32,452 bases of DNA. Origin: a virus. Location of the stretch: the IMG/VR virus record IMGVR_UViG_3300022934_000089, positions 1 through 32,452 of that record; one strand, 5' to 3'. Within the stretch, counting starts at the first letter, position 1, and every line of letters starts with the position of its first letter. Below the pieces are notes generated by a model, which was given only the letters and a program-made list of their open reading frames with translations, was not told the DNA's origin and ran no database searches. The translations under genes were made by a program, and so were the position numbers. Below are positions 13,726-31,150 of this stretch, in pieces.

Positions 13726-14094
13726 ATGAAAACTTTTTTAACATACTTAGAAGAACAAAACGTAACTCAAGCTGACCTTCAAGCTATCAATGAGTCACTA
13801 GAACAGGAATGGACACCTGAGCTAGAAGCTAAAATTGATGAAGCTGTCGATGCATTCTTAGCTGATTACGTAAATGAAGATGGTTCTTACGACTTAGAAA
13901 GATTCAATGCTGAGGTAACTAACGAAGGAGTTCTTGGTTCAATCATCGGTGGTCTTACAGGTTTTGCACTGGGTAAATCAGTTGGTAAGATTGTTGCTAA
14001 AGTACTAGGTATTCAAAAAGGTGTATTCTACGATTTATTAACTTCAAGACTAGTTGGTGCCGCTCTAGGCGCAGCGCTTGGTAAAAAGCTTTAA
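13726..14094 (+). CDS. Small capsid-targeted glycine-zipper protein (122 aa)
   Basis: The frame is open from a GTG at 13711, but ATG at 13726 gives the N-terminus M-K-T-F-L-T-Y-L-E-E-Q. This closely resembles the T4 internal-protein capsid-targeting sequence M-K-T-Y-Q-E-F-I-A-E, so I choose 13726. Residues 12-66 are acidic and helical. Residue 67 ends a V-T-N-E/G motif similar to prohead-protease sites. After it comes a hydrophobic Gly-rich segment (G-V-L-G-S-I-I-G-G-L-T-G-F-A-L-G, then L-V-G-A-A-L-G-A-A-L-G) of glycine-zipper type, which often packs in membranes. Cutting at 67 would free a 55-residue membrane-active peptide. It could be a prohead core or internal head protein. The function is inferred. 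Confidence 0.65.
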   Translation: MKTFLTYLEEQNVTQADLQAINESLEQEWTPELEAKIDEAVDAFLADYVNEDGSYDLERFNAEVTNEGVLGSIIGGLTGFALGKSVGKIVAKVLGIQKGVFYDLLTSRLVGAALGAALGKKL

Positions 14095-17778: not shown

Positions 17779-19293
17779 ATGGAGCTAACTTTAACTGACG
17801 ACAATCAGTTCTTACGTATAGATAAGGCCAGTGAGATTGAACTTGAACAGGTTACAATTTCACTGACTCGTCGTATAGAAACATGGCGTTTCAATCCCTT
17901 GGTTAAAAAAGGTATTTGGGATGGTTATGTTTCATATGTTAAAGATGATAAGTGGATTCCTGCTGGTTTATGGCAAGAGGTCACAAAAATCTGCAAACAG
18001 TACAAATACGATATTAAAATCAACGGTGTAACTAGATTGTTTGACAAAGACATTTCAGCTGAAAGCTTTGAAGAGTGGGCTAATGACTTTTTTGAAGGTC
18101 ATCCTGATGGTATTAAACCAAGAGACTATCAAATCGAAGCGGCATATAATATTTTAAAGTTTAGAAGGTCTCTTTCTGAATTAGCAACATCTGCTGGTAA
18201 AACTTTAATCTCATTTCTTACAGTAGCCTATATGCTTGAAAAAGAAAAGGCTAAGAAGATTCTGTTTATTGTACCGAACGTATCGCTTGTTGTTCAGGCA
18301 AGTGAAGACTTTGGTGAGTACAATCACGAAAACAGAGTTAAGATACTTATACAGCAAATCTATGCTGGTCAAAAGATTAAGGAGAATAGAAATGTAGTTA
18401 TTGGTACATACCAGTCTTTAGTTAAAAAGCCTAAGGAATTCTTTGATGATTTTGAGGCAGTTATTGTAGATGAGACACATAAAGCAAAATCTAATTCTAT
18501 CAAAACAATTCTACAGAAATGTAGACATGCTACATATAAATATGGTCTTTCCGGTACAATACCTAAAGAGAATACATTAGACCGTTTAACACTAATGTCT
18601 CAAACAGGACCTTTAATTACAGAGATTAAGGCAAACTTCTTACAGAAAGAAGGTCACATTGCTGGTTGTAATGTGAATATTATTGAAATGGATTATGCTA
18701 CCGAAGAGACTAAAAAAGCCTTTATGGAGCTTGCAACTAATAGATACGACTCTAAAGATGTATTTCCACTTGAACAGAATTATGTAATCAATTCACCAGG
18801 TCGTATTAATTTCATAACAAAGGTTATTTCTAAAATACCTAAAAACTCTTTGGTTCTTTTTCATAGAATCGAACATGGTAAAAAGCTGTATGAAATGTTA
18901 CGCCAAAGAAGTGATAAAAGGGTGTACTATGTTGACGGTGGAACTAACACTGATATTAGAGAGGAATATAAGGCTAAAATGGAAGCGGGTGATGACGTGG
19001 TTATTATAGCCAGTTATGGTACATTCTCGACGGGTATTTCTATTAAAAAAATACACAACATTTTCTTTACAGAGTCATTCAAATCAGAAGTAATTATTAG
19101 ACAGTCAATTGGTCGTGGTTTAAGACAACACGAGTCAAAAGATTCTGTAAACATCATAGATTTTGTAGATGACCTTACAACAGATGACTGGCAAAACTAT
19201 CTGTACAGACATGGTATTGCTCGTAAAAAGATATATCGCCAAGAAAAGTTTAATTACAAGGTTAAAAAAGTCCGTTTTGAAGGAGATATATAA
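17779..19293 (+). CDS. uvsW: UvsW-like superfamily 2 helicase
   Basis: The 504-aa product (T4 UvsW is about 500 aa) unwinds branched DNA and R-loops and drives the switch from origin to recombination-dependent replication. The first 110 residues match the small N-terminal DNA-binding domain. The helicase motifs are complete: Q-type K-P-R-D-Y-Q, Walker A A-T-S-A-G-K141-T, motif II D231-E-T-H, motif III S258-G-T, and motif VI R441-Q-S-I-G-R-G-L-R-Q. The DETH box replaces the common DEAH/DECH form. ATG at 17779 is chosen because a nearer-upstream ATG at 17775 is out of frame. A 26-base gap follows uvsY. Confidence 0.92.
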   Translation: MELTLTDDNQFLRIDKASEIELEQVTISLTRRIETWRFNPLVKKGIWDGYVSYVKDDKWIPAGLWQEVTKICKQYKYDIKINGVTRLFDKDISAESFEEWANDFFEGHPDGIKPRDYQIEAAYNILKFRRSLSELATSAGKTLISFLTVAYMLEKEKAKKILFIVPNVSLVVQASEDFGEYNHENRVKILIQQIYAGQKIKENRNVVIGTYQSLVKKPKEFFDDFEAVIVDETHKAKSNSIKTILQKCRHATYKYGLSGTIPKENTLDRLTLMSQTGPLITEIKANFLQKEGHIAGCNVNIIEMDYATEETKKAFMELATNRYDSKDVFPLEQNYVINSPGRINFITKVISKIPKNSLVLFHRIEHGKKLYEMLRQRSDKRVYYVDGGTNTDIREEYKAKMEAGDDVVIIASYGTFSTGISIKKIHNIFFTESFKSEVIIRQSIGRGLRQHESKDSVNIIDFVDDLTTDDWQNYLYRHGIARKKIYRQEKFNYKVKKVRFEGDI

Positions 19294-19334
19294 CATTAAG
19301 ATATTATACTATAAAAATAAAGTATCATTATATA
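19294..19334 (+). promoter_or_regulatory. AT-rich gap with TATAAAAATA, possible promoter of the internal-protein block
   Basis: This 41-base gap between uvsW and the 677-aa gene is almost only A and T. It contains TATAAAAATA at 19310-19319, close to but longer than the T4 late consensus TATAAATA. It marks the border between replication genes and the presumed internal-head-protein genes, where a late promoter would make sense. Support is limited to this weak match and position. Confidence 0.3.
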
Positions 19335-21368
19335 ATGAAAAAAATCGAATCATTTAAGTCTTTCTCTCAACTGCAGAATCAATTAAGAGAGGAAGCTAGA
19401 CTAAAAGAAGTTGCAAGTAAACGTGAAGCTTCTACCGCAGCGTTTAATGAACTACTATCTAAGTACAATGCATCTTCAATCACAGATATCAACGAAGAAG
19501 ACCTTGATGCATTTATGACAGAGCTAACAGCTGAAGGTAACGCCTTTGGTGCTGCAAGAGCAGAAGCTATTGCTAAAGGTGAAAAAGAGTTTGAAGTTGA
19601 CGGTGAAAAACTACCAGTTGAAGACGTTGATGCTGAAGACGAGGAAAACGCAGAAGAATTTGCTAACGAGTCAGTGGTTAATGAAGATACTACTATTTTT
19701 GAAGCAACAGTTGAGCTAGACGCATTAGACCCAAAATCTAAAGACCTTGCAAAGCTACTTAAGAAAAATAAGGTAGAAATGGAAATCGTTTCTTATGGCG
19801 GTCCAACATACGGTACACAAGTTGTTGTATTAACAGGTAAGAAAAAAGATCTTCAAACTGTAATGGCTGATTGTGATTACGGTTGGTGTATGGATAACTC
19901 TGAGTCTGATGAGTTTATCGAAGAGTCTACTAAAGTAGATTTTATGAATGAAGCACTAGATGCACGTTCTCAAAAAGATGCGGTTAGAGGTTTAGCAGCT
20001 ATTAATAAATTTATGGCAGCTCACCCGGCATTTGCAGGTGGTAAAACAGTAGCCGACCAAACAATTGCATGGTTATTAAAAGAAGCTCTTAAAGCTGCAA
20101 TGATTGACGCTAACTTTAGTCAAGAGGCTAATCAAGCTGCAAGAGCAATTAACTTTGCAAACTTCATAGCCCCAACTATCTTTATTAAGGAAATGGGTGG
20201 TATGCCAATCCAGATTAGCAAGAGGATAATGATGGAGAAGGTGTATGAACTAGGTACTGAAATAGCTAGAGGTGTTAAATATAATGGATATGCTATTATT
20301 GAAGCTGTTGCACTTTACATGGAGTCTAGATTTAAAAAGAATTCATCAGCTACAGCACTTAGAGACACATTAAATAAATTTTTAGGTGAAGCTAACGAAC
20401 TAGATATCAAAGTACAAAGAATCAACGAAGGTTCAGCTTTTAACACAGCGAGACTAAAAGCGATTGCTGACGATAAGGACGAGTTTGAGTTTGACGGTAA
20501 AACTTATCCAGTAAAGTCTGTTGATAAGGAAGATGAAGAGCTAGCTGATGAAATTACAGAAGCGTTAGGTTCAGGTAATAAGAAGCATGCATCAAGCAAA
20601 CTAATGCAGGCTAAAAGAAGTTTAGAAAATACTTTTGACCCAGATATAGACGCGCCATTAGATGTTAAATCATTTGGTTCAGATATCAAAAAAATGGTAA
20701 AGCAACTAGAGGTTATTCTTAAAAAACAAAAAGAATTTGAAGGTTCAGTAACTGAAGCATTAGACAAAGAAACTATGAAAAGAATGTCAGGTCTAACAGA
20801 TACAAGAGACCTACGTGATTTTAGATCAGCTTTCCTATCAATCGTACAGTCACACATTGACGAAGGTTTTGAATTTGACGACGTTATTGAATTTATGAAC
20901 TCAATCATGAGGGACCCTAACATAAGAAAGCAACTACAAGAATCATTAATTTCTGAAGGTAGAGCGTTTGCAGCCGCAGCTAAGAAGGCTAAAGATGCTG
21001 GTGAAGAAGAGTTTGAATTTGACGGTAAAACTTACCCAGTAACTATTAAAGAATCACAGGAAGTGATTGAAGAAGGTTACGAAGAAAGAAAACTAGAAGA
21101 CGCTAAGGAATTTATTAAGAAGGCTGAAGGTAAAAAAGTTAAGCTAACTATTTACGAAGGCGGTTCTGAATCAGAAATTATAGATACTTTCAAAAAAGGG
21201 TCATACGGCCTTCACAAAATTGATTACATGGGATTTGACTTTGATGAAGAGTTAAAATCTATTGAAAATGGTGATGGTATGATTATGGGTGTTAGACCTG
21301 GTATGTTCCTTAAATGGAAAATCGGTAAAGGTAGACATGGAACTACTTGGTTAATCGAGGTACTATAA
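19335..21368 (+). CDS. Internal-head-protein polyprotein candidate with triplicated module (677 aa)
   Basis: Unrecognised as a whole. The N-terminus M-K-K-I-E-S-F-K-S-F-S-Q-L resembles capsid-targeting leaders. A 29-residue unit occurs three times without gaps: residues 67-95, 365-393 and 541-569, consensus E-G-x-A-F-x-x-A, then E-F-E-F-D-G-K-x-Y-P-V. Each copy starts with the E-G of a candidate prohead-protease site (T-A-E/G, I-N-E/G, I-S-E/G). Between the copies are a compact domain at about 118-190 (with V-S-Y-G-G-P-T-Y-G and C-D-Y-G-W-C), an alanine-rich helical domain at about 208-350, and a helical segment at 410-540. A beta domain at about 573-677 ends the protein. The design suggests a precursor cut into several peptides inside the prohead. 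A terminator follows the stop directly. Confidence 0.72.
   Translation: MKKIESFKSFSQLQNQLREEARLKEVASKREASTAAFNELLSKYNASSITDINEEDLDAFMTELTAEGNAFGAARAEAIAKGEKEFEVDGEKLPVEDVDAEDEENAEEFANESVVNEDTTIFEATVELDALDPKSKDLAKLLKKNKVEMEIVSYGGPTYGTQVVVLTGKKKDLQTVMADCDYGWCMDNSESDEFIEESTKVDFMNEALDARSQKDAVRGLAAINKFMAAHPAFAGGKTVADQTIAWLLKEALKAAMIDANFSQEANQAARAINFANFIAPTIFIKEMGGMPIQISKRIMMEKVYELGTEIARGVKYNGYAIIEAVALYMESRFKKNSSATALRDTLNKFLGEANELDIKVQRINEGSAFNTARLKAIADDKDEFEFDGKTYPVKSVDKEDEELADEITEALGSGNKKHASSKLMQAKRSLENTFDPDIDAPLDVKSFGSDIKKMVKQLEVILKKQKEFEGSVTEALDKETMKRMSGLTDTRDLRDFRSAFLSIVQSHIDEGFEFDDVIEFMNSIMRDPNIRKQLQESLISEGRAFAAAAKKAKDAGEEEFEFDGKTYPVTIKESQEVIEEGYEERKLEDAKEFIKKAEGKKVKLTIYEGGSESEIIDTFKKGSYGLHKIDYMGFDFDEELKSIENGDGMIMGVRPGMFLKWKIGKGRHGTTWLIEVL
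19533..19619 (+). repeat. Module copy 1 (29 codons)
   Basis: This is the first of three equal-length protein modules in the 677-aa gene (residues 67-95). It is the most diverged, reading E-V-D-G-E-K-L-P-V where the others read E-F-D-G-K-T-Y-P-V. It follows L-T-A-E/G. Confidence 0.75.
20427..20513 (+). repeat. Module copy 2 (29 codons)
   Basis: Residues 365-393 of the 677-aa protein, following R-I-N-E/G. The 34-base stretch from 20481 differs from copy 3 (from 21009) at only two third-codon positions, so these two copies are the closer pair. Confidence 0.8.
20955..21041 (+). repeat. Module copy 3 (29 codons)
   Basis: Residues 541-569, following L-I-S-E/G. It has an alanine/lysine-rich helix (A-F-A-A-A-A-K-K-A-K) and then the E-F-E-F-D-G-K-T-Y-P-V strand pair shared with copy 2. 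Confidence 0.8.
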
Positions 21369-21378
21369 AAAACTATTA

Positions 21379-21416
21379 AAAAAGTCTGACATAATTTTTT
21401 TATGTCGGCTTTTTTT
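21379..21416 (+). terminator. Rho-independent terminator
   Basis: GACATAA (21388-21394) pairs with TTATGTC (21400-21406) around a five-T loop. Pairing extends outward through T-G and C-G pairs and an A-rich/T-rich base, and a run of T follows from 21410. It lies 10 bases after the 677-aa gene and 15 bases before the next ATG, so it can end or thin out transcription between these two genes. Confidence 0.85.
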
Positions 21417-21430
21417 CTTATATTCATATT

Positions 21431-21733
21431 ATGAAAAAGGTAAAACTATTTGAAGCGTTTATTGGCGAAGGTGTCTTTAGAACATACAACGAGCTTGTAG
21501 GCTATGAGTACAGAGAGTTTGTAGATGGTTTTAAGAAGCTTCATAAAGATAACGTAGTAATCACTGATAACAAAGAAGATGTCGACTACGGTATGCGTAA
21601 AGGCTCTAAAGAAGCCCTTTGGAAATACTTTAAAGACGAAGGTAGAATTTACCATTCTGAAAAAGACAGAGATGTATTAGGTCTTATTAATGCATTTAAT
21701 ATGGTGAAGAAAAACCATCCTTGGTCAAAATAA
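21431..21733 (+). CDS. Small internal-head-protein candidate (100 aa)
   Basis: The N-terminus M-K-K-V-K-L-F-E-A-F-I-G-E/G has the form of a capsid-targeting sequence ending in a prohead-protease-like site after residue 13. The mature part would be an 87-residue basic, aromatic protein (F-R-T-Y-N-E-L-V-G-Y-E-Y-R-E-F, later N-A-F-N-M-V-K-K-N-H-P-W-S-K). It has no recognisable domain. It follows a terminator and heads a run of four genes that share this type of N-terminus. By analogy with T4 IPI-III, it may be packaged and delivered to the host. Its target is unknown. Confidence 0.7.
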   Translation: MKKVKLFEAFIGEGVFRTYNELVGYEYREFVDGFKKLHKDNVVITDNKEDVDYGMRKGSKEALWKYFKDEGRIYHSEKDRDVLGLINAFNMVKKNHPWSK

Positions 21734-21745
21734 CAAAACAACAAA

Positions 21746-22075
21746 ATGAAAAGGGTTAGACTATTTGAACAATTCTTAAATGAAAGAACAGCAGACTACA
21801 AATATTTAGTAGATCTATTATTAAATGCTGATTTAAAACACAGTGTTTATTATAATAATTCTTGGAGAGTTGTTAATGTAGGTGGGACTGGTTATGATAA
21901 AGGTGATTTAGTTAAACAGTTCAATGCTAAGCCAGGTCAATCTCAAAAAATTAAAGATAACTTCTATTTAGCAGCTCAAAACCCAGATGAAACTATAAAC
22001 CAAATTGATAAGTTAGCAAAGGGTAAAATTGAAGTAGAGCAGGACGGTAAGTTGTTAAAATATACAGTAAAATAA
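21746..22075 (+). CDS. Small internal-head-protein candidate (109 aa)
   Basis: Begins M-K-R-V-R-L-F-E-Q-F-L-N-E/R, with the first 24 bases identical to those of the next gene. The remainder has a helix (Y-K-Y-L-V-D-L-L-L-N-A-D-L), then a short beta segment with W-R-V-V-N-V-G-G-T-G-Y-D-K-G-D-L-V, and a C-terminal I-E-V-E-Q-D-G-K-L-L-K-Y-T-V-K hairpin. There is no enzyme motif. It is one base from the next ATG. Position and leader suggest a packaged protein; the mature function is unknown. Confidence 0.7.
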   Translation: MKRVRLFEQFLNERTADYKYLVDLLLNADLKHSVYYNNSWRVVNVGGTGYDKGDLVKQFNAKPGQSQKIKDNFYLAAQNPDETINQIDKLAKGKIEVEQDGKLLKYTVK

Positions 22076-22076
22076 T

Positions 22077-22559
22077 ATGAAAAGGGTTAGACTATTTGAA
22101 GATTTTGTTAACGAAGCAAAAGTTAACAAAGGTAAAGTTCATAAAGCAGCAAAAGACGCTAGCTATCCAGTGACACTTGTAGTGATTGACGGTAAAAAAG
22201 TTGTTCACCAAGAATTGGTAGAGACTCCAATGGCAGTTCCAGCTTCAATGTCAGTATTAAAAGACAAGTACCCAAACCTTAAGATTCATGTAGAATCTAA
22301 AACAGGTGAAGTTGTATTTGTTCAAGAATCAGCTGAAATTAACGAAGGACAGTATCTTAAAAAATTAGATAGATTAGCAGTTAAGTTTGAAGGTGAAATG
22401 GGATTTGCAACTTTGTCTGAGGATGATATGGATAAGTACATTAATATAGATATGGCTAATGAACTTGCAGAAGAAATGTTCGGTGAGTTTGGTTTTGCAA
22501 CTTTAGATGAGGACCAAATGGAAAAGGTTCTTAAAAAGAATCCAAAGATAATTAAATAA
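22077..22559 (+). CDS. Small internal-head-protein candidate with internal duplication (160 aa)
   Basis: Begins M-K-R-V-R-L-F-E-D-F-V-N-E/A. A second site-like motif, A-E-I-N-E90/G, splits the protein into a beta-rich part (residues 14-90, with V-T-L-V-V-I-D-G-K-K-V and G-E-V-V-F-V-Q) and an acidic C-terminal part. The C-terminal part repeats a 12-residue unit, G-F-A-T-L-S-E-D-D-M-D-K at 109-120 and G-F-A-T-L-D-E-D-Q-M-E-K at 139-150. The stop and the next start share bases (TAATG), so the next gene is probably translated by coupling. No known family recognised. Confidence 0.7.
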   Translation: MKRVRLFEDFVNEAKVNKGKVHKAAKDASYPVTLVVIDGKKVVHQELVETPMAVPASMSVLKDKYPNLKIHVESKTGEVVFVQESAEINEGQYLKKLDRLAVKFEGEMGFATLSEDDMDKYINIDMANELAEEMFGEFGFATLDEDQMEKVLKKNPKIIK

Positions 22560-23848
22560 TGAAATTACTTGTTTCTTTTAATGAGTTTCTTTTAGAAAAA
22601 GCTCATAACTCATATAACGCTGATTTAATCTTAGAAGGTGGCGCAGCTGGTCATATGATGCACCCATTTGATGATAAGGGTCTTACTTTTGATGACTTTA
22701 GAAAGTTTATCGAGGCAGGTCTTCAAGGTGAAATGACTTTTGACGAAGAGCCAACTGAAAAGACTGATGGTCAAAACGTATTTGCTACTGTTAAAGACGG
22801 TCAAGTTCTTTTTGCTAGAAACAAGGGACAATTAATGGCGCCTATAGATTTAGCGGGTATTACAAAAATGTTTGCTGAGCACAAATCTGAGTTGGTTAGG
22901 GACACATTTACATTCGCTGCTCAAGATTTATCATCATCACTTACTAAATTAAAACCAGCTGACCAAGAAAAGTATTTTAACAATGGTAAGAACTTCATGA
23001 ACATGGAGCTTATCTATTCAAAGAACCCTAACGTAATCAACTACGATAGAGATGTTATTCAATTCCACGGTATTAAAGAGACTGATGGTGAGGGCAACAT
23101 TATTGGTGATATGGGTGCAAGGTCGGCTAAAGAGATTGCAAAGCTTTTAGACAATGTTAATGCAAGAGCTGGTAAGGTATTCAACATTATTCCACCCCAG
23201 GTACTTAAGCTACAAAAAGATATTGATTTCGAAACTCGTAAACCTTATTTCATGAAAAAAGTAGATGCACTTCAAAAGAGGTACAATCTAACAGGCCATG
23301 ACGAGGTTGCAAGATACCATGAAATGTGGTGGAGAGAACAAATTGAAGAAAACTTTGGTGACCTTACACAAGATAAGAAAGAGGGATTACTACTTAGATG
23401 GGCATATAAAGACAAGAAGACTCTAAACATGAGAACTCTTGCAAAAGAAGTGACTCCAGAACAAATGGAAGCTATTAAAAAGTTTGATAAAGAGGACCTT
23501 AGTAAAAAGTACAAAGAAAACATTAGACCATTTGAAGACCTTTTCCTTGAATTAGGTTCAGTCATTTTAAAGAATGCTTCTAATTTTGTTGCAGCATCTC
23601 CAGACGCGGAAATGCAAAGACTGCATAATCAAATTAGAAAAGAGGCTGACAAAATTAAAAAGGGCGGTGACATTGAGCAAATTGAAAAGGTAGAAGCCGA
23701 GCTTGAAAGACTAAATAGAATCGGAGGTATTGAATCAATCATTCCAACAGAGGGTTTAGTGTTCAAGTATAATGGCAAAATATATAAGTTAACGGGAACC
23801 TTTGCTGCGATTAATCAGCTAATGGGTATCATTAAATACGGTAGATAA
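22559..23848 (+). CDS. Ligase-fold nucleotidyltransferase (DUF6267-like) with capsid-targeting-like N-terminus
   Basis: The 429-aa protein carries the motifs of the covalent nucleotidyltransferase superfamily (DNA/RNA ligases and capping enzymes). Motif I is K68-T-D-G-Q-N and the lysine would carry AMP or GMP. R87 lies in F-A-R-N-K-G, a motif III-like acid sits at E150 in N-M-E-L-I-Y, motif IV is E398-G-L-V-F, and motif V is K407-I-Y-K410-L-T-G. The E-G-G-A-A-G-H-M-M-H-P-F-D-D segment at 26-39 is typical of the phage family I know as DUF6267. The N-terminus M-K-L-L-V-S-F-N-E-F-L-L-E/K and I-L-E26/G look like leader and cleavage sites. The substrate is unknown; it could join RNA or DNA, or transfer a nucleotide to another target. 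Confidence 0.75.
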   Translation: MKLLVSFNEFLLEKAHNSYNADLILEGGAAGHMMHPFDDKGLTFDDFRKFIEAGLQGEMTFDEEPTEKTDGQNVFATVKDGQVLFARNKGQLMAPIDLAGITKMFAEHKSELVRDTFTFAAQDLSSSLTKLKPADQEKYFNNGKNFMNMELIYSKNPNVINYDRDVIQFHGIKETDGEGNIIGDMGARSAKEIAKLLDNVNARAGKVFNIIPPQVLKLQKDIDFETRKPYFMKKVDALQKRYNLTGHDEVARYHEMWWREQIEENFGDLTQDKKEGLLLRWAYKDKKTLNMRTLAKEVTPEQMEAIKKFDKEDLSKKYKENIRPFEDLFLELGSVILKNASNFVAASPDAEMQRLHNQIRKEADKIKKGGDIEQIEKVEAELERLNRIGGIESIIPTEGLVFKYNGKIYKLTGTFAAINQLMGIIKYGR

Positions 23849-23857
23849 CAATTAAAT

Positions 23858-25705
23858 ATGGCACTTCAAAAACTAAGGGACTATTATAACGAAACGTCTA
23901 GAAATCATTTTTATAAAATGCTAGAGCAAAAGATTCACGTTGTTGAGAAATTAGCAGCGTCGTCTTTTCACGTTAAAGCAAGTGATATTAAAAACGAATA
24001 CTATAAGTCTGGTCAATCAACACCTCTTAATGTTATTGACAGAACAATCGTTAGTTTTTATGAACCTGCTATTATGCACTTTAAAGGTCTTCCTATGGAA
24101 ATTAGAGAAGAAATGCCTAAAGATTGGAAGTTTGGATTTGACTATTTAATTGACGGTGAAACTCCCAACTTCAAGTACTCACTACTTCCTAAAAACAATT
24201 TAGTACTTACACACATTCAAGTATTAAATCCAACTAATGAGACAGTTTCTAAAGTAATTAGAGATACTCAGGTTCTTAATAAATGGGCAGAAAAACTAGA
24301 GGTTCAAAAACCACCAGTTATTTTTGAGGGTCAATTGAGCCACAACCAAAAGGAGGATCTTGTTAAAATGTTAGAGCTTACTGATGATGAGTTTGCTAGA
24401 AAATATGAAGACAGGTCTTTTACAAGAGATTTGTTCTCAATTTTTAATTCAAATCTTAGGAATTCAGCACTTCAAGAAAATCTTGATAGTGAAATTGAAG
24501 GCTTGGTAGTTTCATTTGTAGACGGTAAAAAAATGACGCCGTTTAAAATTGAAGATTTTAGAAAAATTAATGAATCAGCTGGCCCTAGAAAGTCATCAGA
24601 TATTTACCAAATCACTATTGTAGATTTAATTGAGTATCTATCTGAATATGATTTTAAAAAGCATAAATTAGTTAAAGAAGACAAGTACCGTAGGTTCCTT
24701 GAACTTATGTCAGAAGTGTTCAATAACTATATCAAAGAAAATGCACCTAAATATATTGGTGTTAACTTTGAATCAGCAGACTTTGCTAAAAAAGAATCGT
24801 TTAAGCTTAATACTTCATTTATAGAAAATGAAGAAACGATTAGACTTACGAATAATCCAGTATTAGCAGAGCTGTTTAAAATTACACTTAGCTCATTTAA
24901 GGCTAAGAGAACAAAAACAACGGACATCCTATCTGAAGATATGGTCAATCAAATGAATGAAATTGTTGAAGCTATTGATTCACATGTGTCTGCAAAAATA
25001 GAAGAAGGTGACGTGTTAGATTTCCAGAACTATATCAAAAAAGATAGAATTGATGCTTCTGTAAACGAAGCAAGACGCGTATTTACAGTAAAACACCCTG
25101 AACAAGGTAAGAAGCTTGTAAATATGTTTGTTGGTAGATTCCAACCATTTACATTAGGCCATGCTAAAGTGGTAAAAACAATTCACGAACAAAACGGTTA
25201 CCCTGTAGTAATCTTCCTAGTGAAGTCAGTTTCTAAAAAGAAAGAAGACGGTTTTAAAAGACCTTACGATGAGCAAACACAGCTTGAAATGCTAAACGCT
25301 CTTAAAAGAGAACTTCCGATTGAAGAGGTATACATTATTAACTCAGCAGGTATTGACCTTATGTTTAACGAAATGAGACCTAAGTACGAACCAGTTTTAT
25401 GGGGTACAGGTACTGACAGATTAAAAACGTATGGTTACCAGGTTGATGAGCCAAAATACAGGTCTCAATTAGATGTTAGACCAGACTTTGGTTTATTTGA
25501 GATTCCAAGAACAGGTAAAAACATTTCAGCTACTCAAGTTAGAGAAGCAATGTTAGCTGGTGACGAAAAGTTATTTAAGAAGCTTACACCTAAGTCTATT
25601 CACGGTATGTACAACGACCTTAAATCTAAATTAGAGCAAGCAATGGCGTTAGCAGAGTCAAATGAAACAATCATGACATTTGAACAATTTATTGCTAATA
25701 TATAA
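23858..25705 (+). CDS. Ligase-like / nicotinamide-nucleotide adenylyltransferase (NMNAT) fusion
   Basis: The 615-aa protein has two halves. The C-terminal half (about 405-615) is an NMNAT-type nucleotidylyltransferase: N-M-F-V-G-R-F-Q-P-F-T-L-G-H with the GRFQPxxxGH nucleotide-binding motif, a later G-T-G-T-D-R, and I-S-A-T-Q-V-R, which matches the family's ISxTxxR motif. This family joins ATP to NMN to make NAD or performs related transfers. The N-terminal half has ligase-like signs (F-G-F-D-Y-L-I-D-G, N-N-L-V-L-T-H-I, E-G-L-V-V-S-F-V-D-G like motif IV) but no clear K-x-D-G, so it may be inactive or atypical. I-N-E239/S and V-N-E404/A resemble prohead-protease sites, the second exactly at the NMNAT border. 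The C-terminus ends M-T-F-E-Q-F-I-A-N-I, like the leaders in this block. Confidence 0.8.
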   Translation: MALQKLRDYYNETSRNHFYKMLEQKIHVVEKLAASSFHVKASDIKNEYYKSGQSTPLNVIDRTIVSFYEPAIMHFKGLPMEIREEMPKDWKFGFDYLIDGETPNFKYSLLPKNNLVLTHIQVLNPTNETVSKVIRDTQVLNKWAEKLEVQKPPVIFEGQLSHNQKEDLVKMLELTDDEFARKYEDRSFTRDLFSIFNSNLRNSALQENLDSEIEGLVVSFVDGKKMTPFKIEDFRKINESAGPRKSSDIYQITIVDLIEYLSEYDFKKHKLVKEDKYRRFLELMSEVFNNYIKENAPKYIGVNFESADFAKKESFKLNTSFIENEETIRLTNNPVLAELFKITLSSFKAKRTKTTDILSEDMVNQMNEIVEAIDSHVSAKIEEGDVLDFQNYIKKDRIDASVNEARRVFTVKHPEQGKKLVNMFVGRFQPFTLGHAKVVKTIHEQNGYPVVIFLVKSVSKKKEDGFKRPYDEQTQLEMLNALKRELPIEEVYIINSAGIDLMFNEMRPKYEPVLWGTGTDRLKTYGYQVDEPKYRSQLDVRPDFGLFEIPRTGKNISATQVREAMLAGDEKLFKKLTPKSIHGMYNDLKSKLEQAMALAESNETIMTFEQFIANI

Positions 25706-25725
25706 TAAAATACAATCATAGTAAG

Positions 25726-28700
25726 ATGTTTGAATCTTTTAACGACTTTACAAATAATGACATGCCTTTAAATGAGGGCATGTTCTCGTTTAAAACCTTA
25801 GGTGATAATAAGGCAATCAGTGCTAGGTCAGGTGCTGATATTTACATGTTTGATGATAAAGGAAACATGTGGCATGAAGAAAACTATGAAGGTTATGGTA
25901 TCTTCGGTGGTAAAGACTATTTTGAGCTAATGGCCGAAATGAATGGTGAAGAAGGTAGAGATATCGGCATTGACCTTTACTACAGCGATAATAAAAAAGT
26001 TTTATATCCAGCTTTAACAAGAGACGAAGACTTCAACTGGAAAAGACATAAGTTTACTACTAAGATTAAGTCAGACCCTAAGCAAGGTTGGTTTTATGAA
26101 TCTGTAGTTAATGAAGCAAGCGTTACGTTTACAGCAGACCAATTAAACGGACTTCATAGAATTTTGGTTCTTAAAATGGACCAAGGTGAAAGAATTGCGG
26201 GTGTATACGGATATACTTTAAATACAATGCTTTCTAACTATATAAAAAGAGCAGAGTCTAAACCGGGTAACAAAACGGCAGTAAAGGTTGATGATAAATT
26301 AGCAAACGCTATGGACCAACTTCTATCTAATAATGATAATCATTTATCATCAGATGACGAAGCCTATGTTAGATCAAAAATTAGTAAAATAGTGACTGAA
26401 TCAACAATTAATGAAGCTAAGTCAATTGCTAAGATTCAAAAGGAATGGGGTAATGTTACCGCAATTATGAAAGACGTTGTTGCTAAATATAAGAAAGCAG
26501 AAGGTCAAGAAAAAGAGGACTTATTAGACGAGCTTAAATCTTTAACAGCTTCTAAGAAACAACTTGAAGCTGAATTAGATGCAGCGGTTGGTCTTAAAGA
26601 TATTGACGCTGAATTAGCAGAGGGCATGACAACAGAAACAGTTGACGAGTCTATTAAAGCTGAAGATATTAAACCAGGTGCTGAATTTAAAATTAAAGGA
26701 GGTACTGTTTTTAGAGTTGATGATGTTGAAGACCACAAAAAGCAAGGTCTGATAGTTCATTCAAGCATGTCTGACTCTGGCAAGAAAAACGCATACCGCG
26801 ATAGCCTAGATGATTTTGTAGAATTTTTGAATGACGAAAAAGCAAAGATGTTAGAAAATGCAACAGAAACTCGTGGCACAATCGAGTTAGTAAGCGAATC
26901 GTACAACGAACTTAATGAAAGAACGGTTACACTTAAAAGAAGATATACTGAAAATTACCCAGCAGTTACAGCTGGTAAATCAGCAAGAATTAGAAACAAA
27001 ATGCTAGAAGCAATCGCTGATGGCAAAATCACTCAAGAAGAGTTTAACGCTATCTTAAAAGAAATGTCTAACCACCCAGGTAAGTGGTCAAGAAGAAACG
27101 CTAAGTACTTTAACGTATCTGAAGACGGTATTTCACTATCAAAGTTTGGTAAAAGAGCTCTTAAGCAAATTACAATTAACGAAGACGATATGAATGAAGC
27201 TAGAGAACACTGGGTTGTTTATACAGGTGAAGCTATGAAAAAGTTTTACTCAGAACACACTGGTAAAAAGTCGGCTGAAAAAATGGTAGACATGGCCTCA
27301 AGAGTACTGAACCAAGTAGGTATGATGACTAAGAGTGAATGGGAAAAAGAAAAAGAAGCGGGTAACGTTATGGAAAACACTAAATTTGTATTTGAATCAT
27401 TCTCTGAATTCGAATCTAACACAATTAATGAAGGTGCATTTGTTGTATGGTATGAAGATAAAGAAGGCAAGCACCTTCTAGGTACATTCCATAATAAAAA
27501 AGCAGCGGACAAGTACAAGTCAGAAGAAGAAGATGAAGTACTAAACACAGTGGGTGTTAAAGCAATTGGCACAATGTCTAAAGATATGTGGGACAAAAAA
27601 GAAGCACCATATATTAAAGAAGCTGCAAAGATTAAAATGAATGCTCTTGATTGGGGTAAAACAACAGCTGAAAGAAATGCTAATCAAGATAAGTACGATG
27701 CACTTGAAACTGAAGAAGAGCGCGAAGAATTCTTAAGACAATTAAAGAATGAATCAGTAGTTAATGAAGGTAAGCACGATGCAATGCTAGACCAATTAGC
27801 AGAGCTTGTTAAAGATGTAACGTTTATGAACATCGGTCTTAAGCTTAAAGAAGCGGGTATCAAGTATGATTTCTCAACAGGTATGATGCCAATGTATCAA
27901 CTGAAAAAGTACCCAATCGCTATTCTAAACAAAAAGTATGTTGAAAAAGGTGATAGAGAAGTTGGTGATATTGCAATCGGTGTACTTGAGTCGGTTACTA
28001 CGGAAAACGCTGAATTAGTTACAGAAGCATTCAAGTCTTCAAAGCTAAGAAACCTTTTAACAATGAGAGGTGCTGACGGTAACGCAATTAAAAGTTTAGC
28101 TAGAGCATTTTACGGTTTAACTAAGTACAAACTAGACGAACTACCAGATGCAGCGTTAAGAGATGTTGACCCTCAAACAGCGTACAAGTCTTACCAAAAA
28201 GATAATGAATTTGCAGTATTCTATATTGCAGATAACGAAAAAGAAAATCCTTACGGCGACAGTGACTGGGAAAGCAAAATTCAACCAGGTATTATTGGAA
28301 TTACAAGAGGTAAAGAATTCTTAGGTGCAACACACGATACTAAAAAGATGCCAGCGACACTTATGAAAGCTGCTTCAGATAATGCAGTTGGTGGTGATAA
28401 AAGATACTCTGGTTACGGTGCTACAGGTATTTACAATATAAAGAGAGCGGCGGAGCTTGCAGATAGAGCAGTTGTTGTATGGCTTAATAATGATGTATTC
28501 AAGTCTACTGATAAAGTAGAGCAAAGAGCCGATGCTAAATCAGGTGCTATTGCATTTAAATCTGATAAAGAGTTTAAAGATGCTAACATGTATAGATACA
28601 GAGAAATTTTAGCAACTAAAGCTTCTAAACTTCCTTTAGATAAAATGGTTGAAAAAGCTATTAATGATTTGTCTGCCCAAATTAAAGATGGTTTAGCTAA

Positions 28701-28956
28701 AGGTGAATTTACACGTTACGGTGATATTCTTATTGGTAAAAACAAAAAGGGTAGTGATGTTAGAATGAGAGATGCTTCTCAACATATGTCAAACATTTTA
28801 GATGCATACAGTAAATACGTAAGCTATACACAAGAGGCGAAAGAAGAAAAAGACAAGGGATACTCATCAGGTTTCTATGAAAAAGAAGCTAAAGCTTATG
28901 CTAAGAGAGTTGCTGATGACATTAAAAAAATTAAATCGTTTGATTACGCTTGGTAA
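25726..28956 (+). CDS. Internal-head polyprotein candidate with about eight protease-like sites (1076 aa)
   Basis: Starts M-F-E-S-F-N-D-F, a leader-like segment. Sites of the form [LIV]-x-E/[GA] fall between apparent domains, after residues 17, 130, 230, 299, 491, 569, 681 and 767, several preceded by an E-S-x-x-x-N-E pattern. Predicted pieces: 18-130 with W-H-E-E-N-Y-E-G-Y-G-I-F-G-G-K-D-Y; 131-230 helical; 231-299 coiled coil; 300-491 mixed; 492-569 and 570-681, which begin with related repeats; 682-767; and a 309-residue C-terminal domain with a G-D-S-D-W-E and a K-S-G-A-I-A-F-K-S-D-K-E-F motif. I do not recognise any piece as an enzyme. ADP-ribosyltransferase, as for T4 Alt, was considered, but no R-S-E-x-E motif was found. 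The design fits a precursor processed in the prohead. Confidence 0.72.
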   Translation: MFESFNDFTNNDMPLNEGMFSFKTLGDNKAISARSGADIYMFDDKGNMWHEENYEGYGIFGGKDYFELMAEMNGEEGRDIGIDLYYSDNKKVLYPALTRDEDFNWKRHKFTTKIKSDPKQGWFYESVVNEASVTFTADQLNGLHRILVLKMDQGERIAGVYGYTLNTMLSNYIKRAESKPGNKTAVKVDDKLANAMDQLLSNNDNHLSSDDEAYVRSKISKIVTESTINEAKSIAKIQKEWGNVTAIMKDVVAKYKKAEGQEKEDLLDELKSLTASKKQLEAELDAAVGLKDIDAELAEGMTTETVDESIKAEDIKPGAEFKIKGGTVFRVDDVEDHKKQGLIVHSSMSDSGKKNAYRDSLDDFVEFLNDEKAKMLENATETRGTIELVSESYNELNERTVTLKRRYTENYPAVTAGKSARIRNKMLEAIADGKITQEEFNAILKEMSNHPGKWSRRNAKYFNVSEDGISLSKFGKRALKQITINEDDMNEAREHWVVYTGEAMKKFYSEHTGKKSAEKMVDMASRVLNQVGMMTKSEWEKEKEAGNVMENTKFVFESFSEFESNTINEGAFVVWYEDKEGKHLLGTFHNKKAADKYKSEEEDEVLNTVGVKAIGTMSKDMWDKKEAPYIKEAAKIKMNALDWGKTTAERNANQDKYDALETEEEREEFLRQLKNESVVNEGKHDAMLDQLAELVKDVTFMNIGLKLKEAGIKYDFSTGMMPMYQLKKYPIAILNKKYVEKGDREVGDIAIGVLESVTTENAELVTEAFKSSKLRNLLTMRGADGNAIKSLARAFYGLTKYKLDELPDAALRDVDPQTAYKSYQKDNEFAVFYIADNEKENPYGDSDWESKIQPGIIGITRGKEFLGATHDTKKMPATLMKAASDNAVGGDKRYSGYGATGIYNIKRAAELADRAVVVWLNNDVFKSTDKVEQRADAKSGAIAFKSDKEFKDANMYRYREILATKASKLPLDKMVEKAINDLSAQIKDGLAKGEFTRYGDILIGKNKKGSDVRMRDASQHMSNILDAYSKYVSYTQEAKEEKDKGYSSGFYEKEAKAYAKRVADDIKKIKSFDYAW
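27199..27369 (+). repeat. Repeat A in the 1076-aa protein
   Basis: Residues 492-548, starting right after M-N-E491. It shows W-V-V-Y, then G-K-K-S-A-E-K-M, R-V-L-N-Q-V-G-M, and M-T-K-S-E-W-E-K-E-K-E-A, in the same order as repeat B. Confidence 0.55.
27433..27609 (+). repeat. Repeat B in the 1076-aa protein
   Basis: Residues 570-628, starting right after I-N-E569. It shows F-V-V-W-Y, then N-K-K-A-A-D-K-Y, E-V-L-N-T-V-G-V, and M-S-K-D-M-W-D-K-K-E-A, aligning with repeat A with small gaps. Confidence 0.55.
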
Positions 28957-28970
28957 TTAAGTTATAGATT

Positions 28971-29663
28971 ATGCCTAGTCAAAGTAAATCACAACAACGT
29001 CTAATGGGAGTTGCATACGCGGTTAAATCCGGTGATATGCCACTTTCTGATGTAGATGCGTCATATAGAGATAAAGTTAAAGAGCTTGTTGACGGTATGT
29101 CACTTAAAGACCTTAAAGATTTTGCTGAAACAAAACACGACGATATACCGGAAGAGGTTACAGAAGGTGTAGTGAAAATTGATTTACGTAAAATACTAAC
29201 TAAAATTTCAGGTGCTATCGGATACAAGCATGACCCAAAAATGAGGGAAGAGTTGTTATCAGCTTTTGAAAAAGACCTTAGGGAAATTATGGTTAAGCAT
29301 GACTACATTGTAGAAGATGAAACAATTGAAGAAGATTTATCAGCTGTTACCCCAAGTATGCTTGGTGGTATGGGCGATGTTGTTTTACCCAATGGAGATG
29401 CCCCAGGTTCAGGTGATGTTCCAGCAGGTCAAGGTAAAGCTAAAAAGAAAAAAAAGAAACTTTTAAATGTTCAAGAGTTTATTAAAGAACAAGAACAATT
29501 AAAAGCTTTTAAACCAGAACAAGGTGAAGGTGAAGAGTTAGGTGAGGGTGAATATGAAATTGGCCCAGCTAGAGACCCTGACCTTGAGATGGAAGAAATA
29601 CGCAAACGTAGACACGCTGCAGTTAATGTAACTACTTTTAGTAATTTCACTAAAAATAGGTAA
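28971..29663 (+). CDS. DUF3008-like protein with lysine-rich linker (230 aa)
   Basis: The N-terminal 65 residues match the small DUF3008 family seen in many phages and some bacteria: M-P-S-Q-S-K-S-Q-Q-R-L-M-G-V-A-Y-A near the start and M-S-L-K-D-L-K-D-F-A-E-T-K-H further on. A helical middle follows. Then comes a Gly/Pro stretch (G-M-G-D-V-V-L-P-N-G-D-A-P-G-S-G-D-V-P-A-G), a seven-lysine-rich run at 157-163, and N-V-Q-E-F-I-K-E, a leader-like F-I-x-E segment. The C-terminus is Glu-rich and then basic. This make-up occurs in T4-like phage head or core proteins, which supports but does not prove a capsid role. DUF3008 has no defined function that I know of. Confidence 0.72.
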   Translation: MPSQSKSQQRLMGVAYAVKSGDMPLSDVDASYRDKVKELVDGMSLKDLKDFAETKHDDIPEEVTEGVVKIDLRKILTKISGAIGYKHDPKMREELLSAFEKDLREIMVKHDYIVEDETIEEDLSAVTPSMLGGMGDVVLPNGDAPGSGDVPAGQGKAKKKKKKLLNVQEFIKEQEQLKAFKPEQGEGEELGEGEYEIGPARDPDLEMEEIRKRRHAAVNVTTFSNFTKNR

Positions 29664-29963: not shown

Positions 29964-30129
29964 AGAGCAAGTAATTGAAATCTTAATGGAAGCTGATGCG
30001 TTAGGAATTCGCGAAGAGGTTATACAGTATGCTAGACACCTTAGAGAAATCAATATTAGATTAGACCGAGTAGATGCATATGAAGTTGCATTTAGTAAAA
30101 TCAAACAAGTTTTAGAAGAAGATGAATAA
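29953..30129 (+). CDS. Small conserved T4-like hypothetical protein (58 aa)
   Basis: A 58-codon gene nested between its neighbours, overlapping the previous one by 11 bases and the thymidylate synthase gene by 8. The product M-T-S-E-E-Q-V-I-E-I-L-M-E-A-D-A-L-G-I-R runs on into E-E-V-I-Q-Y-A-R and D-A-Y-E-V-A-F-S-K-I. It matches a pattern I know from small proteins of T4-like phages (L-x-E-A-x-A-x-G-[LI]-R, then V-x-A-Y-x-x-A-[FY]). It is two or three helices with no catalytic residues. The function is unknown. Confidence 0.65.
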   Translation: MTSEEQVIEILMEADALGIREEVIQYARHLREINIRLDRVDAYEVAFSKIKQVLEEDE

Positions 30130-31150
30130 TTTAGATAGACAATACCAAGAGCTATTAAAAGATGTTTTAACTAATGGCGTAAGTAAAGACGATAGAACAG
30201 GAACCGGTACTATTTCAACATTTGGTCGTATGATGCGTCATAAAATGTCAGATGGTTTTCCACTTCTTACAACTAAGAAGATGTTTATGAAAACTTGTAT
30301 GACCGAGTTAAAATGGTTCTTAAAAGGAGATACCAACATCAAGTATTTGGTGGATAATGGATGTAACATTTGGAATGGTGATGCTTATAAGGCATATGAG
30401 AAATATGCATTGGCTAATTCTTATGGTGTTGATATTCTGTCAATGGATGAATTTATTGAACAAATTAAAACCGACAATGCATTCGCAGCAAAATGGGGCG
30501 AGTTAGGTCCTATTTATGGTTATCAGTGGAGACACTGGGTTGCTAAGAATGAAATTGAATCCGGTGGTGAATATGCATGGGTTGACCAAATTGAATGGTT
30601 GATTAATGAACTTAAAACAAATCCTGATTCACGTAGACTAATGGTTAACGCTTGGAATGTTGCAGACCTTCCAAATATGACGTTGCCTCCGTGCCATTAC
30701 GGGTTCCAAGTTTATACACAACCACTATCGTTAAAGCAACGCAGAGCAGCTTGGGCTAAATCATTGGATAAAGACGAATCATATGCTAGAGAACTTTCAC
30801 ATGAAGACCTTGATGCTAAAGGATTCCCAACTAGAACTATTTCACTAAAGTGGGACCAGCGTTCAGTTGACACTTTCTTAGGATTACCTTTTGATATTGC
30901 ATCGTATGGTATGCTTCTACACTTGATTGCACTTGAAGTAAATATGATACCGGATGAATTGATTTGCATGCTAGGTGATGTTCACATTTACAACAATCAC
31001 CTAAAGCAAGTAAATGAACTATTAGGAAGAATGCCTAAAAAATTACCAAAGCTTTCTAAGTTAGAAGGCAGTGTTTTGACGGGTGAGTTTGAATATGAAA
31101 TTGAGGGATATGACCCACACCCTGCAATTAAAGCACCCTTAAGTAATTAA
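30122..31150 (+). CDS. td: Thymidylate synthase (ThyA type)
   Basis: The 342-aa product methylates dUMP to dTMP with methylene-tetrahydrofolate. Signatures: R25-T-G-T-G-T near the start, N-I-W-N-G-D, G-P-I-Y-G-Y-Q-W-R, the catalytic C191 in L-P-P-C-H-Y-G-F-Q-V-Y, S-L-K-W-D-Q-R-S-V-D-T-F-L-G-L-P-F-D-I-A, and D-V-H-I-Y-N-N-H. It is longer than T4 Td (286 aa). One extra segment lies at about 89-125 and another at about 201-237 (L-K-Q-R-R-A-A-W-A-K to G-F-P-T-R), the latter right after the catalytic region. No intron is present in this copy, unlike T4 td. It lies in a nucleotide-metabolism group with dUTPase. Confidence 0.96.
   Translation: MNNLDRQYQELLKDVLTNGVSKDDRTGTGTISTFGRMMRHKMSDGFPLLTTKKMFMKTCMTELKWFLKGDTNIKYLVDNGCNIWNGDAYKAYEKYALANSYGVDILSMDEFIEQIKTDNAFAAKWGELGPIYGYQWRHWVAKNEIESGGEYAWVDQIEWLINELKTNPDSRRLMVNAWNVADLPNMTLPPCHYGFQVYTQPLSLKQRRAAWAKSLDKDESYARELSHEDLDAKGFPTRTISLKWDQRSVDTFLGLPFDIASYGMLLHLIALEVNMIPDELICMLGDVHIYNNHLKQVNELLGRMPKKLPKLSKLEGSVLTGEFEYEIEGYDPHPAIKAPLSN

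Follow-up and report, generated by a model that had tools for sequence, protein, structure and literature searches.

The internal proteins of phage T4 begin with the residues M-K-T-Y-Q-E-F-I-A-E, and the prohead protease and the scaffold of that phage are encoded by two genes. Passages of PMC9026906 place the targeting function of the T4 internal protein IPIII mainly at residues 4 and 7 and its processing at residues 8 and 10, and state that the protease gp21 cuts gp22, gp67 and other T4 proteins after L/I-X-E. The same passages note LIE-9 near the N-terminus of gp21, describe C-terminal processing for Alt and gp21, and suggest that a capsid-targeting sequence (CTS) lets T4-like phages load various proteins. 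Here we describe a block of eight genes (19335-29663) in the IMG/VR record IMGVR_UViG_3300022934_000089, whose whole length of 32,452 bases is the window of this analysis. Genes of this block carry T4-like leader segments, and its two longest products look like cleavable cargo polyproteins. The principle of CTS-tagged packaging is already known from T4; the polyprotein variant appears to be new.

As described in sections of PMC9026906 and PMC3012670, IPI-IPIII and Alt of T4 resemble the present case in having a short tag at the N-terminus, where two aromatic residues stand three positions apart ahead of an [IL]-x-E cut, in placing one tag on unrelated mature proteins, and in the grouping of an S77-type protease, scaffold and capsid gene. 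However, 59-73 tagged families occur in the clade considered here, versus three internal proteins plus Alt in T4, and its tag is about three residues longer and is accompanied by modular polyproteins, a protease-scaffold fusion and a capsid motif on cargo. Excerpts of PMC5694885 on SPN3US and phiKZ-type giant phages likewise tell of inner-head propeptides removed by a prohead protease and of proteins thought to be ejected with the DNA, but there the propeptides are often >100 residues long, the protease belongs to MEROPS S80, and those excerpts describe no module-by-module polyprotein. Polyvalent proteins and the Dar proteins of P1, in the portions of PMC5512222 and PMC9024508 devoted to them, are similar in being multi-domain injected counter-defence cargo, and an N-terminal packaging signal is shown there for P1 DarB (PMC9024508). 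The proposal made for polyvalent proteins is processing by peptidase domains of their own (PMC5512222), in contrast to the prohead-protease [ILV]xE sites considered below, and the same portions mention no T4-type tag. In the open PMC literature, screened by title and start of abstract, comparable cargo polyproteins built module by module were not found.

A leader of the form M-K-x-[VIL]-[KR]-L-F-E-x-F-[ILV]-x-E, or a near form, opens four genes of the block, and two more have looser N-terminal forms; the tag core lies at the C-terminus in one block gene and internally in another. The features are as follows, with a slash marking each predicted cut.

19335-21368, + strand: 677-amino-acid cargo polyprotein candidate with the looser leader MKKIESFKSFSQLQNQLREE.
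21431-21733, + strand: 100-amino-acid protein; leader MKKVKLFEAFIGE, then G, at 21431-21469; predicted cut after E13; 14 homologous open reading frames (ORFs).
21746-22075, + strand: 109-amino-acid protein; leader MKRVRLFEQFLNE, then R, at 21746-21784; predicted cut after E13; 4 homologous ORFs.
22077-22559, + strand: 160-amino-acid protein; leader MKRVRLFEDFVNE, then A, at 22077-22115; predicted cuts after E13 and E90 (INE/GQYL); 22 homologous ORFs.
22559-23848, + strand: 429-amino-acid putative RNA-ligase-like nucleotidyltransferase; leader MKLLVSFNEFLLE, then K, at 22559-22597; acidic end also E13.
23858-25705, + strand: 615-amino-acid protein with an N-terminal domain holding a ligase-like EGLVVSF motif (our reading) and an NMNAT/cytidylyltransferase-type domain at residues 423-563.
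25726-28956, + strand: 1,076-amino-acid cargo polyprotein candidate; leader MFESFNDFTNNDMPLNE, then G, at 25726-25776.
27370-27432, + strand: second, internal tag MENTKFVFESFSEFESNTINE, then GAF, inside the 1,076-amino-acid protein.
28971-29663, + strand: 230-amino-acid protein with DUF3008 at residues 4-62 (PF11450, 9e-10).
13726-14094, + strand: leader-like gene outside the block, adjoining the tail-tube gene; start MKTFLTYLEEQ.

An earlier note on this DNA had reported leaders of the M-K-[KR]-V-[KR]-L-F-E type with the acidic end at residue 13 at 21431, 21746 and 22077, variants at 22559 and 25726 and a looser form at 19335, all of which can be read in the translations. Residues 4, 7, 8 and 10 of the T4 tag are Y, F, I and E, and the window leader has like residues at equal spacing, three residues further in. 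We defined a core pattern, [FY]-[EDKNQSRT]-x-[FY]-[ILVMA]-x-E within the first 26 residues, which occurs in 4 of the 30 window genes versus 0.07 expected from shuffled N-termini and in 0/352 internal 26-residue windows; the leaders of 19335 and 25726 fail it and were counted as loose by eye.

For comparison, relatives of the 22559 protein are encoded on 283 IMG/VR stretches, of which the best 80 were taken in, and relatives of the 25726 protein at 7 IMG/VR loci. The ORF set comprises 2,263 distinct ORFs across 103 sources; the contigs are metagenomic, ORFs were called by a simple script, and identical proteins were dropped before counting. Among six large relatives, core-pattern matches number 7 in G009, 10 in G008, 8 in G001, 13 in G006, 9 in G004 and 12 in G005, versus 0.20-0.43 per genome for shuffled N-termini, and 0.2-0.6% of internal windows match. 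The shuffled N-termini and internal-window counts exclude chance as the source of the leader.

We read the two long proteins as cleavable polyproteins because candidate sites mark the borders of their modules and are kept when those modules stand elsewhere. The 677-residue protein contains three copies of a module of the type AFxxAxxxAxxxGxxEF(E/K)xDGKxYPV, starting at residues 68, 366 and 542 behind AE/G, NE/G and SE/G, and a further border lies at E206. Cuts in the 1,076-residue protein are predicted after E17, E130, E230, E398, E491, E569, E632, E681 and E767. Modules of both proteins recur elsewhere in other combinations, where they are preceded by a leader or by some different sequence and the site is retained. 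Where the 110 residues that follow a leader are found inside other proteins, an [ILVM]xE lies no more than 3 residues from the projected cut at 87 of 154 distinct places, with 28.3 expected. Partial alignments within the polyprotein set also show sites about twofold enriched in the first 15 residues from their starts, whereas control proteins do not (highest bin 1.36).

Individual borders were assessed in contexts whose 30 upstream residues are less than about 45% alike, after near-identical contexts had been dropped, by the presence of a site within 2 residues (background 0.141); for E63, E365 and E541, other copies within the same protein count as contexts. In the 1,076-residue protein the site is kept in 26/26 other contexts at E767, 32/34 at E398 and 8/8 at E230, and in the single context available at E569, at E632 (in the cultured Tenacibaculum phage PTm1) and at E681 (1/1 each). 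E17 is kept in 4/4 contexts, one being the window's own protein on another contig. The corresponding figures for the 677-residue protein are 8/8 at E206, 29/34 at E365 and 31/37 at E541. Among the remaining borders of the window proteins, E474 is kept in 2/3 contexts. For example, a stand-alone protein starts MKKFEEFIGE/GKITLKRRYTEN where the window reads ELNE/RTVTLKRRYTEN, a second protein reads MNKIHTTFESFVNESLEVNE/AFKSSKL where the window has LVTE/AFKSSKL, and ORF 082 of PTm1 has LNE/GIKMNNLDWGKTTAERNANQDKY in place of IKE/AAKIKMNALDWGKTTAERNANQDKY. At the AFKSSKL border the E and the A are invariant in 24/24 aligned sequences. A model of the AFKSSKL module (residues 760-1076; predicted local distance difference test (pLDDT) score 74) gave no PDB match at E 0.001, nor did a search with its sequence, and Pfam searches at E 0.1 found no peptidase domain in either long protein.

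The tag also occurs away from the N-terminus, in positions that the earlier note had not listed. The 23858 protein, which has 57 homologous ORFs in all, lacks an N-terminal tag and carries a C-terminal one (25658-25702, SNETIMTFEQFIANI), the protein ending in TIMTFEQFIANI. Of the 52 NMNAT-fusion relatives that reach the C-terminus, 50 have this core within their final 28 residues, versus 2 of 1,658 other proteins, and the two relatives without it are fused into 1,117- and 1,122-residue proteins. The interdomain border of the 23858 protein has the site VNE/A at E404, and an [ILVM]xE[AGR] stands 15-19 residues before the NMNAT start in every one of the 53 relatives in which the start motif of that domain is present (background 0.08). 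In Microcystis phage Mel-JY01 (PP395634, 11243-13162), NMNAT-like and ligase-like domains are fused in one gene, as we read its translation; in the window the genes are neighbours.

Internal tags often start at an in-frame ATG preceded by A-rich sequence, for instance at residue 104 of L010 13799-14407 and residue 587 of L042 13758-16535. The ORF set, counted without removal of near-duplicates, contains 75 internal ATGs with a tag of this kind. Their upstream A content is 0.61, compared with 0.36 at the remaining internal ATGs and 0.50 at the starts of genes; it drops to 0.42 where fewer than three K/N residues precede (n=28), so that K/N-rich linkers confound the figure. It is as if fused genes had kept their own starts, an appearance subject to the same confounding. 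The internal tag of the window (27370) scores poorly as a start (-5.7).

Site frequencies were counted with the first 22 residues removed, comparing the eight block proteins with the other 22 window genes and each with composition-preserving shuffles. The block has 28 [ILV]xE[GA] sites versus 8.8 expected (other genes 15 versus 10.6), 13 [ILV][NSAT]E[GA] sites versus 1.9 (5 versus 2.7) and 8 [ILV]NE[GAS] sites versus 0.6, a 13-fold excess (1 versus 1.1). Within the block, [ILV]xD[GA] stands at 1.34 times expectation, the reversed motif at 1.04 and [ILV]xK[GA] at 0.90; these controls and the shuffles exclude a composition effect as the cause of the site excess. The residues around [ILV]xE are also biased: 18% of the sites in 122 polyprotein-like ORFs have N at P2 versus 7% in control proteins, and 51% have A, S or G at P1' versus 22%. 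At leader ends P2 is N in 34/63, close to the preference at internal polyprotein sites. The earlier note had placed [ILV]-x-E/[GA] motifs at domain borders, with which the retention of module-border sites in other contexts agrees, and the comparison that it proposed, run here against the structural and replication proteins encoded alongside the block, yields a clear excess in the block.

Several results weigh against reading these proteins as a processed set. As borders, E117 is kept in 10/20 contexts, E580 in 1/2, E299 in 0/1 and E709 in 0/2; E63 is kept in 11/36, the true border lying 4 residues further on, and E130, E409 and E491 have no other context for comparison. The [ILV]xE motif is short, and some sites could be conserved parts of modules. 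Leader-bearing proteins of the relatives show an internal-site excess in only 2/6 genomes, with [ILV]NE[GAS] at 3 versus 0.2 in G009 and 3 versus 0.4 in G001; no clear excess is seen in G008 (0 versus 0.2), G006 (1 versus 0.3), G004 (1 versus 0.3) or G005 (0 versus 0.4). Internal cutting of every leader protein is not supported by these counts. Proteins of the relatives without a strict leader are also modestly enriched ([ILV]NE[GAS] at 1.8-3.0 times expectation), which we put down to loose-leader polyproteins and scaffold proteins, both counted in that class. In addition, two block genes served as the baits with which the relatives were collected, which makes the relatives non-independent, most cargo families are without known function, and a PF03420 search of the window's own 32,452-base fragment found no gp21-type S77 protease (0/1).

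The alternative that survives best, although we judge it unlikely, is that only the terminal tag is lost and that the long proteins are injected intact, in 'polyvalent' fashion, their internal sites being uncut relics of gene fusion. In the sections of PMC5512222 that concern them, multi-domain proteins are injected, and the N4 virion RNA polymerase is packaged unprocessed; internal tags with their own ATG and A-rich upstream sequence do resemble fused genes, and the uneven site counts of leader-bearing proteins fit as well. Relic sites should decay, however, whereas the E and A of the AFKSSKL border are invariant, the sites at E767 and E398 persist in 26/26 and 32/34 contexts though P3 and P2 vary, and the NMNAT border site is kept 53/53 despite a variable linker.

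The virus is, judging from its genes, an uncultured T4-like myovirus of bacteria, and the window is probably a fragment of its genome. T4-like genes in the window include those for a tail tube, a single-strand binding protein, a primase, a helicase and a thymidylate synthase. A megablast search of the INPHARED phage collection with 22 kb of the window gave no match, nor did a tblastn search with the 19335 protein. The major capsid protein of G008 matches 1,090 phage records, many from T4-like phages, the best rows being a 462-kb uncultured phage, Prevotella Lak phages and Tenacibaculum phages; the match in PTm1 is annotated as major capsid protein. Because the best capsid matches include Prevotella Lak and Tenacibaculum phages, we consider the host to be probably a member of the Bacteroidota.

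The earlier note had called for a gp21 homologue elsewhere in the genome, and an S77 (gp21-type) prohead protease, absent from the window's own 32-kb fragment, is present in 9/12 large relatives; the three without it may be fragments. In G001, G004, G005, G006, G008 and G009 the protease forms the N-terminal part of a protein of 632-820 residues whose remainder is scaffold-like with repeated YxAE-type sites in our reading (e.g., G008 93458-95458), full sequences having been read for four relatives and only the starts for G001 and G005. In G004 (46201-48336), the protease-scaffold protein also holds the AFxxAxxxAxxxGxxEFEFDGKTYPV module of the 19335 protein.

The head operon has the same order in 6/6 of these relatives: a portal-like gene (named from its size and place), a small core gene, the protease-scaffold gene, the capsid gene and a further core gene, with one gene intervening before the last in G006 and G008. 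Both core genes have a tag or tag-like N-terminus by eye in 6/6 (for example, MKYVKLFEQFIKE), and the core pattern itself is found in the first in 2/6 (G008 and G006) and in the second in 2/6 (G009 and G004). The N-terminus of the protease-scaffold protein contains LLI[LV]E ending at residue 9-11, and the capsid protein of all six has INE/[AS] near its start. Set beside the L/I-X-E cuts of gp22, gp67 and other T4 proteins and LIE-9 near the gp21 N-terminus, the likeness to T4 is close.

A link between the block and the capsid is suggested by the 28971 protein, which carries a GMGxVxLP..GSGD motif (29367-29417) as in the major capsid protein, followed by a lysine run and then an internal tag-like LLNVQEFIKE (29460-29489). 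Of the 49 places in the ORF set with GGMGxVxLP and then GSGD, or like sequence, 42 fall in the BLAST family of the 28971 protein, 6 in the N-terminal region of the major capsid proteins that the six large relatives encode, and 1 in another protein; shuffling the proteomes 20 times gave 0 or 1. GMGxxxP is present in 42 of 44 members of the 28971 family, of which 37 have an [ILVAM]xE shortly before it and 35 a tag-like stretch after it. After cutting, the capsid protein and the 28971 cargo could expose a similar N-terminal arm, and our guess is that the arm of the latter docks on the shell. A literature search on DUF3008 found nothing.

These findings also bear on whether the leader might be some other amphipathic docking or membrane signal, with the [ILV]xE enrichment a by-product of acidic linkers. 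The leader is indeed short and amphipathic, as many signals are. Its residue spacing is T4-like, however, it sits on genes that flank the prohead protease and capsid gene, neither the shuffles nor the control motifs (D, K and reversed) reproduce such an excess for the block, and the 28971 protein holds a capsid-protein motif, all of which make this explanation quite improbable.

Many otherwise dissimilar proteins share the leader. A wider leader pattern matches 270 of the 2,263 ORFs, in 73 post-leader families (single linkage, with no BLAST join after the leader at 1e-3), and a stricter pattern matches 208 ORFs in 59 families. The wider set holds false positives, by our reading a ribonucleotide reductase and a dUTPase-like protein; under the stricter pattern 14 of the 73 are lost, 6 of them still leader-like by eye. 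Representatives were taken for 71 of the 73 families and 56 were aligned and scanned; the 15 left out were 7 with doubtful leaders, 1 of the ligase family, 1 of the 13711 family and 6 that look genuine, 3 of which were scanned separately. In the alignment of the 56, the only residues of the first row that are nearly invariant (at least 90%) are M1, E5, F7 and E10. Modules are clearly shuffled among genes and phages, but recent duplication or recombination with no common function can hardly account for a leader nearly invariant at only four residues and shared by 59-73 families without BLAST similarity beyond it.

The gene at 13726 has 40 homologous ORFs, including all 19 members of the leader family that begins MRKDIRTFNEYLAEQ. 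We shifted its start to an internal ATG, and its product has a glycine-rich hydrophobic tail behind VTNE/G.

Among the cargo candidates, the 22559 protein is predicted to be RNA-ligase-like. With its model, which is of medium quality (pLDDT 72), ranks 1-31 of a VIA-align search are all ligases, 25 of them titled RNA or tRNA ligases, at Z 5.2-7.4 (none reaching 8) and 10-16% identity; Foldseek gave no match at E 0.001, and no convincing match was found in PDB sequences or Pfam. In an alignment of 30 family members, E13, K68-T-D-G71 (the KTDG motif) and E398-G are invariant, and in 54/54 relatives longer than 400 residues an [FY]xx[FY][ILVMA]x(1,2)E lies among residues 1-50; the protein has a second site, LILE/GG, at E26. 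The NMNAT-type domain of the 23858 protein matches Pfam PF01467 (CTP_transf_like) at 2.4e-10, with 41.2 bits versus a cut-off of 21.

Pfam assigned 8 families, with one member each, to the 56 tagged representatives, three of these falling in what we read as the ribonucleotide reductase false positive. Tagged proteins of the relatives include an Acb1-like protein (Pfam 5e-7, above the cut-off; 0.028 to solved Acb1), whose PHROG match is named 'RNA ligase' (phrog_755, 2.3e-10) in disagreement with the Pfam name, a polynucleotide-kinase-like protein (phrog_415, 1.9e-8), a RimK-like ATP-grasp protein (3.3e-5) and a P-loop kinase (AAA_33, 5.3e-10). A GNAT protein (9.3e-7) has the tag-like start MKKVKLFEEFTKGYE without an [ILV]xE end. 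A second cluster of genes with tagged or tag-like starts lies at G004 159497-163308, G008 18405-21634, G009 20836-23394 and G005 1887-4226, and contains a kinase, GNAT, RimK-like, Acb1-like and DUF5824 proteins and proteins without an assigned family. Neither an ADP-ribosyltransferase-like R-S-E pattern at G004 160240-161439 nor an HExxH at G009 20836-21546, both by our reading, was confirmed by a family search, and neither is claimed; PADLOC matches on tagged proteins were weak (best 1.5e-4) and were not used. As a side observation, about 32 residues around QPLSLKQRRAAWAKSLDKDESYARELSHEDLDAKG in the thymidylate synthase of the window (30122-31150) have no counterpart in a near relative, L007 17846-18841.

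The leaders and sites are real. From them we infer packaging, cutting, injection and the function of the cargo, and we hold it to be quite probable that the internal-protein logic of T4 has here been expanded into a modular polyprotein system in which tagged cargo is packed, cut by the prohead protease and injected. The earlier note had proposed a large set of packaged, processed and possibly injected proteins; the motif rates, the protease in relatives and the T4-like leader geometry speak for the proposal, whose packaging, cutting and injection steps stay at the level of inference. The block would be the cargo-loading locus of a T4-like myovirus with a probable Bacteroidota host. The capsid-targeting sequence on each product, whether N-terminal, C-terminal or internal, would bind the scaffold core of the prohead, and once the shell has closed, a gp21-type S77 protease, joined in the relatives to a scaffold-like part, would cut after [ILV]-x-E, preferably where N precedes the E and A, S or G follows. 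Cutting would remove the tags and, in the long proteins, separate the modules, so that one gene could load several proteins in equal number. The freed products would remain inside the head alongside the packaged DNA, pass with it into the cell and act at once, their likely jobs being RNA repair, NAD+ synthesis, protein modification and action against the cyclic oligonucleotide-based antiphage signalling system (CBASS). An RNA ligase would mend cut tRNA, and an NMNAT would restore NAD+. For the more specific proposal, that the head protease serves as a polyprotein protease for strung injected effectors, which are exchanged as modules between phages and loaded through tags at either end or inside, while a copy of the capsid protein's N-terminal arm, exposed on cutting, seats one cargo on the inner face of the shell, we regard the case as evenly balanced.

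As far as the open PMC literature shows, this would be the first indication that the head protease of a phage cuts polyproteins of cargo. The short tag could serve as a search tool, in that any tagged gene in these uncultured phages becomes a candidate for an effector that is injected. Likely counter-defence proteins are already among the tagged ones, namely the Acb1-like protein, RNA-repair-like enzymes and NMNAT. The question of what T4-like phages inject is thereby made testable for many families at once.

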